In this document: one piece after another, positions 15,454 to 20,366 of the stretch
Layout of the letters: the number at the start of each line of letters is the position of its first letter
How positions within the stretch are numbered: the stretch's first letter is position 1
DNA from: a virus
Virus record (IMG/VR): IMGVR_UViG_3300034518_000133
Span: 1-20,366 of that record
Strand: one strand, 5' to 3'
Length of the DNA: 20,366 bases
The notes under the pieces: generated by a model
The model's database searches: none
What the model was told of the DNA's origin: nothing
What the model saw: only the letters and a program-made list of their open reading frames with translations
Made by a program: the position numbers and the translations under genes

Positions 15454-16551
15454 TTAATATCCTGAATTGGTTATATAGTCGTTAAGTTCTTCAATAGATT
15501 TCTTCGTGGGTGGTTTACCTTCTGGATTTGTTTCATTTTTATATTTAGAATTAAATATTTGTCGTTGTATACTTTTTAAAATTGTTGTCTCTTTCATGAA
15601 AACGGCTCCCTGGACAGGCCCTCCTGATACAGTCATGACCTGGCCGCCACTAACAAATTTATCCATTATACTAACGAGTTGATCCACTAAATCTTTTATA
15701 AAATTTCCATGAACATAAGGTTGTCCATTAATAAGTATTTCAGGAGAATTAATAGAGACTTTTTTAAACCCATTGATAAATATTTCTTCTTTTTTAGATT
15801 GAAAAATCAACCTATCACTTTCTATTACAATTTGGTCTCCAGTTAATTCTGGAAATTCATCTGCCCCTTTAACTCTTTCTTTTAAATCTAAAGGTATTCT
15901 ACTACCTTCTAAATAAATAACACTTCCTTCATTATCGAAATATGGTGTAAATAAACCATCCTCATTAAATTTATTCGTATTATTTGTTATTCTCAAACAA
16001 GGCTGGGTTTCATTCTTACTGGTAAATTGTATAGTTTGACCAAATCTACCTTGAATAAACTTATCTCCATCTTTATATCTTGGTAATGGTACAATCTTTT
16101 TAACTTTTTTATTTACAACTTCTGAGGCCCTATTAACTTCTGACTCTATTGGTAAACCAGATTTACCAAAATTTGAAATATTATAATTTAATTTTCTATC
16201 AATAGAAAAATCTCTAATATAATATAACGTTTCATTTGGTGTGAGTCCAAATTCAAATACCATTACATATTCATTCTCAGAAGGTAGCTCAAAATCCCTC
16301 AATGAAAATGGTTGAATCCACCTATTTTCTAATATTTTATTATATTCAGTAGTTACTAATCTTCCTTGAATTGCACCATATAACTCACCACTTTCTACAC
16401 TTGTATGTACCTTCTTAACCTCACATACATCAAACTGTAAATAGCGATATGCATCTGAATACTTTCTTATCATATGATAAGCCTGTGCCTCAGTTACAAA
16501 ACCATCCTTTTTTCCTTCTCTAATAACTTTGGTTCTATCAATTGTCGGCAT
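15454..16551 (-). CDS. Baseplate hub/central-spike protein, gp5-like without lysozyme domain
   Basis: A 365-residue protein. Residues 38-115 (LQFDVCEVKKVHTSV; GAIQGRLV; NEYVMVFEFGL; TLYYIRDFSI) fit an OB-fold, the N-terminal fold of T4 gp5 and other tail-spike hubs. Residues about 160-285 carry the repeated polar beta strands typical of the gp5 C-terminal part in marine T4-like phages: GRFGQTIQFTSKN, EGSVIYLEGSRIPL, TGDQIVIESDRLIFQSKKEEI and NGFKKVSINSPEILING. No T4-type muramidase segment is seen between them. The C-terminus is helical (FIKDLVDQLVSIMDKF) and includes SGGQVMTVSGGPVQGAV. AGGAAAG precedes the ATG. Role: hub closing the tail tube and carrying the membrane-piercing tip. Confidence 0.82.
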   Translation of the reverse strand: MPTIDRTKVIREGKKDGFVTEAQAYHMIRKYSDAYRYLQFDVCEVKKVHTSVESGELYGAIQGRLVTTEYNKILENRWIQPFSLRDFELPSENEYVMVFEFGLTPNETLYYIRDFSIDRKLNYNISNFGKSGLPIESEVNRASEVVNKKVKKIVPLPRYKDGDKFIQGRFGQTIQFTSKNETQPCLRITNNTNKFNEDGLFTPYFDNEGSVIYLEGSRIPLDLKERVKGADEFPELTGDQIVIESDRLIFQSKKEEIFINGFKKVSINSPEILINGQPYVHGNFIKDLVDQLVSIMDKFVSGGQVMTVSGGPVQGAVFMKETTILKSIQRQIFNSKYKNETNPEGKPPTKKSIEELNDYITNSGY

Positions 16552-16924
16552 TTATTTTCACTTTCCTATTCACTTCATCTGTATAATCTTGAGCTTCTTG
16601 TGCAACCTTTTCTATTGAACCTACTAATTGTTCTTTTTCTTTTTCAGATAGTCCAAATTCTGACTCCGAACCCTTGCTTTCAGAACTAACTAATCGTTGA
16701 ACTATTGATGCCATCTTTACCAATTGCTCATCATTTTTTACTTTAATTTCTAAATATTCTTTGATAGCAGGTATTAATTGTACTGCAGTATCACCATCTT
16801 TGATGAATCCCACAATCTCTTTTATAAGAATATCTAACTGTTTTTTATTATCTGATGAATTGTTGTAAATATCTTCAAATACATCGGATAACGATTTTTC
16901 TTTAAATACTTTAAAATCTGACAT
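16538..16924 (-). CDS. Hypothetical protein at the head of the tail operon (128 residues)
   Basis: A mostly helical, acidic protein: MSDFKVFKEKSLSDVFEDIY at the N-terminus, then KKQLDILIKEIVGFIKD, a middle LIPAIKEYLEIKVKNDEQLVKMASIVQRLV, and a C-terminal LSEKEKEQLVGSIEKVAQEA. Its end overlaps the gp5-like gene by 14 bases, so the two are probably translated together. It is the first gene of the leftward tail operon; only a weak GAG is seen before the ATG. I recall similar small proteins next to gp5 in marine T4-like phages but no function. Confidence 0.72.
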   Translation of the reverse strand: MSDFKVFKEKSLSDVFEDIYNNSSDNKKQLDILIKEIVGFIKDGDTAVQLIPAIKEYLEIKVKNDEQLVKMASIVQRLVSSESKGSESEFGLSEKEKEQLVGSIEKVAQEAQDYTDEVNRKVKINADN

Positions 16925-16961
16925 TTTTGTTCTCGTGTTGTTTGATATAGATTGACTCTAA

Positions 16962-17034
16962 TATAAATATAACATTAAATTTATTCCGTTTTATATAAAT
17001 ATATACTAAAAAATTAAATTCTTTTATATAAATA
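16962..17034 (+). promoter_or_regulatory. Three tandem T4-type late promoter boxes (TATAAATA)
   Basis: Exact TATAAATA boxes occur on the plus strand at 16962-16969, 16994-17001 and 17027-17034, starting 32 and 33 bases apart, about three helical turns. TATAAATA is the known T4 late consensus read by gp55, and a gp55-like gene lies just to the right. The second and third copies are part of a longer imperfect repeat (ATTAAATT, a short spacer, then TTTTATATAAATA). All lie upstream of the plus-strand 73-residue gene. The region is also upstream of the minus-strand tail operon and very AT-rich, so chance contributes to the matches. Confidence 0.6.
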
Positions 17035-17044
17035 GTTATATAAG

Positions 17045-17062
17045 AGGACTTTTTATAGTCCT
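17045..17062 (+). promoter_or_regulatory. Hairpin near the predicted 5' end of the 73-residue gene's mRNA
   Basis: AGGACT (17045-17050) and AGTCCT (17057-17062) form a perfect 6-bp stem with a 6-base loop TTTTAT. With transcription starting a few bases after the last TATAAATA box, this hairpin would sit at the very 5' end of the transcript. It is 24 bases before the Shine-Dalgarno GGAG (17087-17090). A 5' stem can protect mRNA from decay; that role here is inferred. Confidence 0.5.
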
Positions 17063-17098
17063 AATTGATGCAATACTAAACTAACTGGAGAAAAACCA

Positions 17099-17320
17099 AT
17101 GAGGGAAGTAGTAACAATGGTCGGAGGATGGATAGATGACATAGCGTCTCTATTGTTATCCTTTGTAGCCATCGGAGCCATAGGCGAAGTATTATTCGGC
17201 AGTGGTTTCTTTGGTGTTAATGTTATTAGTAACCTAACATCTATTATAAATGGTTTCGGTGAATCTGGCTTTGCTGGATTAGTCGCACTATTGGTGTTGG
17301 TGGGTTTATTTCGCAAATAA
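17099..17320 (+). CDS. Small hydrophobic membrane protein (73 residues), isolated late gene
   Basis: The only plus-strand gene in the window. GGAG at 17087-17090 lies 8 bases before the ATG, a near-ideal spacing. The protein has a hydrophobic segment at about residues 15-34 (IASLLLSFVAIGAIGEVLFG), a Gly/Asn-containing middle with hydrophobic residues (FFGVNVISNLTSIINGFG) and a second hydrophobic segment at about 57-71 (GFAGLVALLVLVGLF), ending FRK. Two membrane helices are likely, with few charged residues. It has its own promoter boxes, hairpins and terminator, which suggests strong late expression. Size and topology would suit a holin or a membrane-inserted virion or lysis accessory protein, but no family is recognised and I do not assign one. 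Confidence 0.8.
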   Translation: MREVVTMVGGWIDDIASLLLSFVAIGAIGEVLFGSGFFGVNVISNLTSIINGFGESGFAGLVALLVLVGLFRK

Positions 17321-17345
17321 GATGTGACGTCCCGTCACTCACATC
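17321..17345 (+). other. Stem-loop immediately after the stop codon, two alternative pairings
   Basis: Directly after the TAA of the 73-residue gene, GATGTGA (17321-17327) pairs perfectly with TCACATC (17339-17345) around an 11-base loop. Alternatively GTGACG (17324-17329) pairs with CGTCAC (17333-17338) around a 3-base loop. The two pairings exclude each other. There is no T tract here, so it is not itself a terminator. It may shield the mRNA 3' end or cover the stop codon. Confidence 0.5.
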
Positions 17346-17352
17346 TGTGCAT

Positions 17353-17383
17353 AAAAAAACCCCGATTTAGTCGGGGTTTTTTT
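17353..17383. terminator. Strong bidirectional intrinsic terminator
   Basis: CCCCGA (17360-17365), loop TTTAG, TCGGGG (17371-17376) forms a GC-rich 6-bp stem, which flanking A7 (17353-17359) and T7 (17377-17383) can extend. On the plus strand the T tract ends the 73-residue gene transcript. On the minus strand the complement of the A tract ends the transcript of the gp55-like gene, whose stop is at 17405. It therefore serves two convergent units and insulates the right module from the tail operon. Confidence 0.9.
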
Positions 17384-17404: not shown

Positions 17405-18124
17405 TTAGGCGTTAAATATAGAACCTGTATTGGTTGTGTCTATTTGTCCTAAATTTTGATAATCATATATCATATCCTTATAATGTTTTTTCATAACATT
17501 AATAACTCTAGTAATATGTTGAGTATTAGAACCTGTCATTTCACGAATCAGAATGTATAATGCCTTCTTATTGAAATTCTCTACATTTCGTCGTTTCCTA
17601 AATAATTCTATAACAGAATCTGCAACCAATATATCTTTTTGTCTACGGAATATGTTTCGAATATTATTATCCCAAAACTCTAACATTTGTTCTATAAATT
17701 CGTTATAGGTTTCTTTAGATTCCCGTTCACTTTCTTCAGAACTTAGATTTCTATTAAAATCTAAAACATCTAATGATTTAGTTATTTTCATTTTTTTATA
17801 ATTGTTGTTATTATGAAGAATTAAATAATTCTTTCCAACAATACTGAAATAACTAAATGCCTTTCCCTTACCTTCTTTAAACTTATGTATATTCATTATC
17901 AAATAAGACACTACTTCATTTTTTACTTCAGTTAATGGTATATCAAAATAATAAAATTTAAAAGTATGTATCAAATTTTCTGCTAATTTATCAAACGCAT
18001 AACCAATTTCAGCTACATATAAGTCGTTTTTCAACATCCTATCATCAGTATTATTATACTGAATAATAGCATCTTCTGTATCTTGTGTGAAATACATTCT
18101 TGACTTTGCTTTTTTACGCGGCAT
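17405..18124 (-). CDS. 55: Late transcription sigma factor, T4 gp55-like
   Basis: A 239-residue protein that fits T4-type gp55. The N-terminal YFTQDTEDAIIQYNN (about residues 11-25), the region AEIGYAFDKLAENLIHTFKFYY, and KGKAFSYFSIVGKNYLILHNNNNYKK (about 85-110) match the conserved sigma region-2-like part that binds RNA polymerase and reads the late -10 box. The C-terminus contains KKALYILIREMTGSNTQHITRVI, probably a helix-turn-helix-like segment. It ends with a short hydrophobic GSIFNA tail; in T4 the gp55 C-terminus contacts the sliding clamp gp45. TATAAATA boxes nearby are its expected targets. It overlaps the preceding small gene by 11 bases. Confidence 0.88.
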   Translation of the reverse strand: MPRKKAKSRMYFTQDTEDAIIQYNNTDDRMLKNDLYVAEIGYAFDKLAENLIHTFKFYYFDIPLTEVKNEVVSYLIMNIHKFKEGKGKAFSYFSIVGKNYLILHNNNNYKKMKITKSLDVLDFNRNLSSEESERESKETYNEFIEQMLEFWDNNIRNIFRRQKDILVADSVIELFRKRRNVENFNKKALYILIREMTGSNTQHITRVINVMKKHYKDMIYDYQNLGQIDTTNTGSIFNA

Positions 18125-18374
18125 CTACTTCTTCTCCTTCTAATTCCTGTAGTTCGTCTACAGTTTCTTTAATGAGTTTAAATGTTGTTCCTACTTCATC
18201 ATCAGCTTCAAAATGTCCTTGATGATCGATTTCTTGTAAGTTATCTCTAACTTGTGTTATCTTTTCAGAAAATGTTTCCACCCAAGTTTCCAACATTTCT
18301 GTTTTTTTTGTTAAATTCCAAATCACATATCCTTCTCCAAGAACAAGTAATCCTAATAATATTTCTAATACCAT
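18114..18374 (-). CDS. Small membrane-anchored hypothetical protein (86 residues)
   Basis: Residues 2-20 (VLEILLGLLVLGEGYVIWN) form one likely membrane helix. Residues 22-50 are a helical, coiled-coil-like stretch (KKTEMLETWVETFSEKITQVRDNLQEI), and then HFEADDEVGTTFKLIKETVDELQ. I recall the HFEADDE.G..FK pattern from marine T4-like phages, always unassigned. It overlaps the methyltransferase stop by 10 bases and the sigma-factor start by 11. Probably anchored in the host inner membrane with a cytoplasmic coiled coil; function unknown. Confidence 0.76.
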   Translation of the reverse strand: MVLEILLGLLVLGEGYVIWNLTKKTEMLETWVETFSEKITQVRDNLQEIDHQGHFEADDEVGTTFKLIKETVDELQELEGEEVDAA

Positions 18375-19036
18375 TTTTGATTTCCTTCGTATTTATCTAT
18401 TCTATTCATACATAACTCATATGTTTTCGGGTCTATTTCACTACCCATATAAAACCTATCTGAATTAATACATGCAATAGCAGTAGTGCCTACACCCATA
18501 AACGGGTCATAGACTACTTCACTCACATTAGTAAAATTCTCTATACACTTTTGTGCTATTTCTATTGGCATATTATATGAATAACCTTCATAGTTTTGAT
18601 GTTTATGATCCCACACATCTATTTTAAAATCTTTCTTATAATGTTGTTTACATTTCTGTTTAGCAAATGATAAAACAAATGCATAGTTTAATCTATATAA
18701 ATTTATACTTGGTGATTTTCTCCAAATTTTTTGTGATACTAACTTATATCCTAAATCAAACATCATATCTATAACCATTTTATGTTTAGGTATAATAGTT
18801 GAATTGAATTTCCTATCACTAATAACTACCGTAACTACGTGTTTAGTCGGATTTAATTTTTTCAATACATTACTAACAAAACTAAAATATTCTTCTGAAT
18901 CACTTTTTGGATTCATATTAATTTCATCATAATCTGGAGGTGAGAAAAATGCATAATCATAACTAGATTCTTTATTCAATCTATCCATACAATCTTCTAA
19001 AAATATATTATTTATCTTATTCACCAAATAGCTCAT
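18365..19036 (-). CDS. DNA methyltransferase (amino-methylating, motif IV before motif I)
   Basis: A 223-residue protein with the order of beta-type N6-adenine/N4-cytosine methyltransferases: catalytic motif IV early (FFSPPDYDE, residues 30-38) and the AdoMet-binding motif I late (DPFMGVGTTAIAC, residues 177-189), followed by GSEID, the acidic motif II. NIFLEDCMDRL at residues 10-20 corresponds to the usual 'GDC...L' N-terminal element. The usual DPPY/SPPY is here SPPD followed by Tyr, so the aromatic residue is displaced. No restriction enzyme gene is seen, so it is an orphan enzyme, perhaps protecting phage DNA. The ATG overlaps the HD gene by 20 bases; a GTG at 19024 is an alternative start. 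Confidence 0.84.
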   Translation of the reverse strand: MSYLVNKINNIFLEDCMDRLNKESSYDYAFFSPPDYDEINMNPKSDSEEYFSFVSNVLKKLNPTKHVVTVVISDRKFNSTIIPKHKMVIDMMFDLGYKLVSQKIWRKSPSINLYRLNYAFVLSFAKQKCKQHYKKDFKIDVWDHKHQNYEGYSYNMPIEIAQKCIENFTNVSEVVYDPFMGVGTTAIACINSDRFYMGSEIDPKTYELCMNRIDKYEGNQKWY

Positions 19037-19803: not shown

Positions 19804-20124
19804 TTATTTTTCATTCCTTATTTTTGTTCCGCTAATTTCTTTAATTTCTGGTGGTGGAAAATGTTCTATAACATCATAACCAACATCTCTACCATAGTTT
19901 ATAGATTCTATATCTGGTATAATCATAATTTTAATCAAACCCTCATCTATAAATCCTTTGAATTTCACTTGTAGATTATCATAAACTTCTTCACAAGTAT
20001 ATGGATTATTTTCATCGGGTAACATATCACGAATACAAATCAAAACATTCTTACCCTCTTTGAGTCTTTGGTCAATCAACCATTGATGACCGTTATGCCA
20101 CGGTTGCCATCTGCCGATAAACAT
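19804..20124 (-). CDS. Small HxGH-motif nucleotidyltransferase
   Basis: A 106-residue protein with both hallmarks of the nucleotidylyltransferase fold that includes cytidylyltransferases, NMN adenylyltransferases and ATP sulfurylase: the N-terminal nucleotide-binding site FIGRWQPWHNGH (H10, H13) and the C-terminal ISGTKIR (residues 97-103), which binds the triphosphate. It is short for the family, which usually has 130 or more residues. The ATG lies inside the end of the APS-kinase-like gene, which is in another frame, with 32 bases of overlap; a TAG closes this frame just upstream. The neighbouring APS kinase-like gene suggests a joint sulfate-activation or nucleotide-transfer role. The substrate cannot be read from the sequence. 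Confidence 0.8.
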   Translation of the reverse strand: MFIGRWQPWHNGHQWLIDQRLKEGKNVLICIRDMLPDENNPYTCEEVYDNLQVKFKGFIDEGLIKIMIIPDIESINYGRDVGYDVIEHFPPPEIKEISGTKIRNEK

Positions 20125-20366
20125 CGAGTATTTCAGCTATACACTCCTCTATTGGTTTGTTTGTATCTATATCTGTAAAATTATGTAATGGTGGTTCGTA
20201 ATCTTCTACAAAATAATCTTCTTTACCTCGTATATCCGTCGTGTGAAGATAGAACTCTGTTATGTTTCTATTTGATTTTAGTTTTTCTCTCATATCTCTA
20301 TAAGGTGAAACTAATGATACCAATACTAAATAACCTTTATCATCCATTACTTTTGCCATATCGATA
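20093..20366 (-). CDS. APS kinase-like protein, partial (N-terminus beyond right edge)
   Basis: The visible C-terminal 90 or so residues fit adenylylsulfate kinase (CysC type). The segment IDMAKVMDDKGYLVLVSLVSPYRDMRE corresponds to the '..AKL..D.G..VL...ISP.R..R' block. FYLHTT...KEDYF then corresponds to the 'C..RD..GLY' region, although the usual Arg-Asp-Pro-Lys is altered. NFTDIDTNKPIEECIAEILDVY corresponds to the C-terminal '.ID....s.EE.v..I...l'. The Met at 20359 is internal because the frame is open to the window edge, so the ATP-binding P-loop lies outside. APS kinase phosphorylates APS to PAPS. Related P-loop kinases of phages act on other substrates, so the substrate is uncertain. Confidence 0.74.
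   Translation of the reverse strand, partial: IDMAKVMDDKGYLVLVSLVSPYRDMREKLKSNRNITEFYLHTTDIRGKEDYFVEDYEPPLHNFTDIDTNKPIEECIAEILDVYRQMATVA

Follow-up and report, generated by a model that had tools for sequence, protein, structure and literature searches.

Cyanophage psbA and hli are host-derived phage genes for subunits of a membrane complex, the photosystem, and lambdoid morons are extra genes that come with their own promoter and terminator. The locus analyzed here recalls both. It lies in a window of 20,366 nucleotides, positions 1 to 20,366 of IMG/VR virus record IMGVR_UViG_3300034518_000133, and it holds a small plus-strand gene, P73. A first-pass annotation, made from the letters of the window, had called this the sole plus-strand gene, and the window indeed contains no other convincing one.

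A conserved membrane protein on the opposite strand

The P73 ORF (window 17099-17320, +) encodes 73 amino acids with two transmembrane (TM) helices predicted from hydropathy, and the hydrophobic product of 73 residues proposed earlier is thus real. IMG/VR contains at least 434 relatives, which are viral and, in all that were read, 73 residues long. Forty distinct sequences align without gaps over this length, with 40 of the 73 columns invariant, and remoter members, with identities down to 62%, likewise have 73 residues. From its two TM segments and short basic C-terminus, P73 probably forms a helical hairpin with both ends in the cytoplasm. Searched alone, P73 returned nothing from Pfam, PHROGs, NCBIfam, INPHARED or the PDB, and for these resources the statement that no family is assigned was right. 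A search of 50,697 phage records retrieved no relative, and literature searches yielded no description of the gene or of Fidelibacterota phages.

The reading frame, on whose conservation the earlier interpretation had been made to depend, is under strong purifying selection (dN/dS ∼0.09). Of the 17 genome-to-genome comparisons in which P73 was reported, 15 rank it first among all proteins for conservation, one fourth and one sixth. The median identity of P73 over nine genomes is 86%, compared with 64% for p128, 60% for a sigma-like protein and 53% for gp6; in the two records with a capsid gene, the major capsid protein is 63% and P73 85% identical. The pN of P73 is far below that of its neighbors (0.09 versus 0.24–0.32), and its pS is near theirs (0.55 versus 0.59–0.70); constraint therefore accounts for most of the conservation. 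Recent horizontal spread was rejected as the main cause, the pS being just slightly under that of the neighbors.

In a 216-kb relative, ORFs on the main strand cover 204 kb versus 2.4 kb on the opposite strand, which consist of P73 and mostly of ORFs in gaps, P73 being the lone convincing gene among them. The 120-kb phage record G001 carries a second credible gene on the opposite strand, which is MscS-like and encodes 110 residues. This short membrane protein, with a mechanosensitive channel beta-domain, is conserved between phages (L092:10582-10914 and L097:7432-7779). Loci long enough to display the gene order share the arrangement gp25 - p158 - (variable) - p365 - p128 - P73(+) - variable insert - sigma-like - p86 - HD, and P73 is alone on its strand there. 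Its constant neighbor p128 (16538..16924, −) is the first gene of a divergent tail/baseplate operon. The interval between P73 and the sigma-like gene is an insertion hot spot, the gene sets of which vary by lineage (e.g. L045, L052 and L036). The window further encodes an N6/N4 DNA methyltransferase (18365-19036, −), present at that position in some members and not in all, and, at the contig end, the C-terminal portion of a protein resembling adenylylsulfate kinase (CysC) (20093-20365, −), adjoined by a nucleotidyltransferase-like ORF (19804-20124). Elsewhere in the group, L105:13247-14244 is a possible lysis cassette, in which a two-TM protein is immediately followed by a TM-anchored protein similar to a 3D-domain lytic enzyme.

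The phage group is T4-like, with gp23 identified by Pfam search in two long records; capsid genes of Immuto used as queries matched no capsid genes in the fragment records. The gp6-like baseplate protein of the group is related to those of Immutovirus and Microcystis phage Mel-JY01. In these two relatives the p128 gene directly adjoins the sigma-like gene, P73 being absent from the junction, and profile searches of their complete records and that of LR756508, including the syntenic tail region, found no P73.

Promoters, leader and the sigma-like neighbor

Three TATAAATA 8-mers are located at 16962, 16994 and 17027 in a gap of 174 nt with 21% GC, where 0.12 would be expected by chance (P(three or more) = 2.5e-4). 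The boxes noted in the first-pass annotation thus exist, but most of them face away from P73, and TATAAATA was rejected as the promoter of P73 on its orientation, on an unbiased motif count and on its absence from whole lineages. TATAAATA is missing upstream of P73 in, for example, all of L017 and L044, and a T4-type -10 box of this sequence that faces P73 and is kept in relatives was not found. Counting 8-mers in 202 intergenic regions of related phages, with the P73 region excluded, we found the late motif ATATTTAT/TATTTATA enriched upstream of genes (49 and 39 regions, respectively, versus ∼4.5 expected), whereas TATAAATA, the reverse complement of this motif, barely departs from background (8 regions). 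A second set enriched in the same regions consists of an early -35-like ACTTGACT with TATTAAGG. Judged from these counts, the late promoter of the phage group is TATTTATA, which corrects the rule for this group.

A late-promoter weight matrix built from 45 late sites (training median 13.1) yields median scores of 14.4 toward p128 and 8.5 toward P73. Because the enriched late motif is TATTTATA and the matrix scores favor the p128 direction, boxes 1 and 2 most probably represent tail-operon late promoters viewed from the wrong strand. On the minus strand, box 1 would serve as the late promoter for the divergent p128/tail operon (16955..16971, −; score 14.6), and box 2 a second late-promoter-like site of that operon (16987..17003, −; 12.9). 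The conserved promoter of P73 itself is assigned to AATAGTTATATAAGAGG (17031..17047, +; 8.5), a variant, ATAGTTAT-n-G, of the phage late promoter. The corresponding site, ATA[GAT]TTAT, ends a few bases before the 5' hairpin in 68 of 70 P73 leaders and overlaps box 3 in the window.

The control elements described earlier around P73 are all present. A 5'-terminal mRNA hairpin, GAGGAC...GTCCT (17044..17062, +), keeps its position and differs in sequence between lineages; the Shine-Dalgarno GGAG follows at 17087..17090 (+), a further hairpin is located immediately 3' of the stop codon (17321..17345, +), and an intrinsic terminator with a symmetric A-tract/stem/T-tract (17353..17383, +) has the form of a terminator on either strand. 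Pairing in the 5' hairpin is retained across leaders despite sequence change (mean z is -2.6, and 87% fall below -1, relative to mononucleotide shuffles only), and the hairpin probably stabilizes the P73 mRNA. A terminator-like hairpin with a T-run is found downstream of P73 in nearly all of the leaders' loci examined. The proposed self-contained opposite-strand unit is borne out: a small conserved two-helix protein is encoded behind a late-type promoter, 5' hairpin and good Shine-Dalgarno and ahead of a terminator. The leader and terminator make the very high late expression suggested for it plausible.

The sigma-factor-like protein encoded nearby (17405..18124, −) is a candidate late sigma of the gp55 type, with weak to moderate profile and fold support. 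Its match to gp55 is weak (hhalign 16.7%, E 0.0015); the predicted fold is all-helical and retrieves many sigma factors in Foldseek, none of the matches having an E of 0.1 or below. The protein is a plausible candidate for reading the TATTTATA promoters. The arrangement resembles T4 late transcription in having an AT-rich, -10-only late motif with a sigma-like protein encoded next door. It differs from T4 in that the motif of the phage group is TATTTATA-n4-G and not TATAAATA, and in that the sigma-like protein matches gp55 marginally.

Cellular homologs and the origin of P73

The MAG TMED198 contains a P73 phage contig and, on a separate contig, a 70-residue homolog (profile search, E 2.7e-14). 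In the phylum of TMED198, the phage profile matches 85 of 199 genomes (E down to 3e-14) and a host profile 110 of 199, with the copies nearly always in adjacent pairs; among 200 genomes from the phylum of a second MAG, the sole match was the phage contig itself. The host genes form a tandem of A (upstream) and B (downstream), which encode membrane proteins of ∼70 residues with no family in Pfam or NCBIfam. A and B are paralogs (hhalign 99.0%, E 4e-18), and P73 aligns with host B (hhalign 99.2%, E 2.8e-19). In the tree, the phage sequences are monophyletic (100/99), host A forms its own clade (100/100), and P73 branches on the B side of the division between A and B. A was sought in 20 phage records and in IMG/VR and is absent from them. 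P73 shares with the host A/B family a full-length profile similarity, two TM segments and a length of ∼70 residues; the phages have a single copy in place of the adjacent pair, and P73 is classed as a B homolog and not as a pair. Cellular homologs in the host lineage, a single capture and absence from related phages mark P73 as a phage gene of host origin. On this sequence evidence P73 is host-derived, by one capture from the B side, the direction of transfer being read from the distribution.

MAG G016 contains both a P73 phage contig and a host pair. G001 encodes a complete TonB-dependent receptor with Plug and carboxypeptidase-regulatory domains (L095:5267-8056), which is 68% identical to cellular copies in the TMED198 phylum; these occur in 121 of 149 genomes there, versus 0 of 150 in the other phylum, and the match therefore provides independent support for the TMED198 phylum as host. 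Genomes of this phylum are 0.7–4.7 Mb in size and of marine origin, and we infer that it is probably Marinimicrobia/Fidelibacterota.

Hairpin-Shine-Dalgarno leaders are found upstream of host B too, and to a lesser degree upstream of host A; the order hairpin, short spacer, Shine-Dalgarno and ATG is common to host and phage genes. Genes for glycosyltransferases, a muramoyl amidase, and MurI-like and FolC-like proteins recur around the host pair, with no fixed operon. VirB2/TrbC pilins (PF04956) are likewise small two-TM hairpins, and weak matches to them occur for 7 of the 25 host A proteins (best E 2.8e-4), but no per-protein match among those listed reaches the Pfam cut-off, and P73 itself is unmatched. 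No type IV secretion genes were recognized near host A/B, and a pilin identity was rejected on the PF04956 gathering score and on the T4SS context. A phage type IV pilin-like protein with an N-methylation motif is encoded at L095:17057-17491, with a pilin-like ORF nearby (L095:17527-18171).

Possible roles of P73 and relation to known systems

The homology to a host pair shifts the question from a new holin or virion protein to why a phage carries a host membrane subunit. The reading that we favor, and to which we assign an even chance of being correct, is that P73 is a phage form of subunit B, made late, which enters the complex beside host B or in its place; it is favored because the phage carries B alone and keeps B nearly invariant. 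P73 would be transcribed from its own late-type unit, with the variant promoter, 5'-terminal hairpin, good Shine-Dalgarno and terminator, and its product would insert in the inner membrane as a helical hairpin. Late in infection, P73 would join or replace host B in a putative complex with host A, and may keep or retune this membrane complex while host transcription is off, as photosystem subunits encoded by cyanophages do. Counting against a subunit role are the ∼45% identity of P73 to the sampled host B proteins with 2–3 extra loop residues, the presence of the A/B pair in roughly half of the phylum's sampled genomes, and the AlphaFold model of P73, which has two helices at low confidence (pTM 0.30) and gave no usable fold match as a query.

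A captured B could instead have turned into a holin or pinholin, whose late build-up permeabilizes the membrane and triggers a membrane-anchored endolysin. In its 73 residues, its two TM segments, its probable topology with both ends inside and its late-type promoter, P73 resembles class II holins and pinholins, and related genomes encode a TM-anchored protein that by eye resembles a 3D-domain lytic enzyme (L105:13648-14244). Yet a different two-TM protein is encoded directly upstream of this lytic candidate, no recognized lysis gene adjoins P73, and P73 matches no known holin family. Holins usually evolve fast, whereas P73 is hyperconserved, with its 40 invariant columns in 40 sequences; its cellular relatives, moreover, are ordinary chromosomal genes. 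We consider this role unlikely.

T4 Imm is one example of a small membrane protein that acts in exclusion, and P73 might act in superinfection exclusion or receptor masking if phages used the A/B complex at the inner membrane and a phage variant of B blocked later infection. A stand-alone expression unit and conservation across many phages fit such a common host target, but the promoter is late-type and not early, and we rate exclusion as slightly less probable still than lysis. A place in the virion, or in anchoring head or baseplate assembly to the membrane, would agree with the late-type promoter, with an identity above that of the capsid protein and with a position that throughout adjoins the tail/baseplate operon. 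P73 is host-derived with cellular homologs, however, and Immutovirus, Mel-JY01 and LR756508 assemble without it; we rate a structural role as the least probable of these.

Returning to the subunit reading, a protein taken from the host and conserved beyond the capsid and baseplate of the phage points to a host membrane function that these phages appear to need. In its broader form, which seems to us equally balanced between right and wrong, an undescribed membrane assembly of two components would be specific to one marine/subsurface phylum, probably Marinimicrobia/Fidelibacterota, and P73 would be the phage counterpart of one of its subunits; the T4-like phages of that phylum would depend on P73 so strongly that none of their proteins is more conserved. 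P73 provides a handle on an unannotated protein pair that roughly half of the genomes sampled from one phylum encode, and a marker gene for the T4-like phages of that phylum, and in these uncultured marine viruses it points to an unstudied part of the host bacteria.

P73 resembles the host A/B pair in length, in its two TM segments, in a G-[LF]-A-G-L-[VL]-A-L motif in TM2, in its basic C-terminus and in the hairpin-plus-Shine-Dalgarno leader; unlike the pair, the phage has B alone, with 2–3 extra loop residues, a phage-type promoter and an orientation opposite to all other genes. As with cyanophage psbA and hli, P73 is host-derived, hyperconserved relative to backbone genes and, by analogy, probably serves a host membrane complex, but the host of the P73 phages is not a cyanobacterium. 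Like a lambdoid moron, the P73 unit is located between conserved phage genes and is missing at the same site in relatives; it differs from morons in being core and near-invariant, in its opposite strand and in a promoter of the phage late type rather than of the host.
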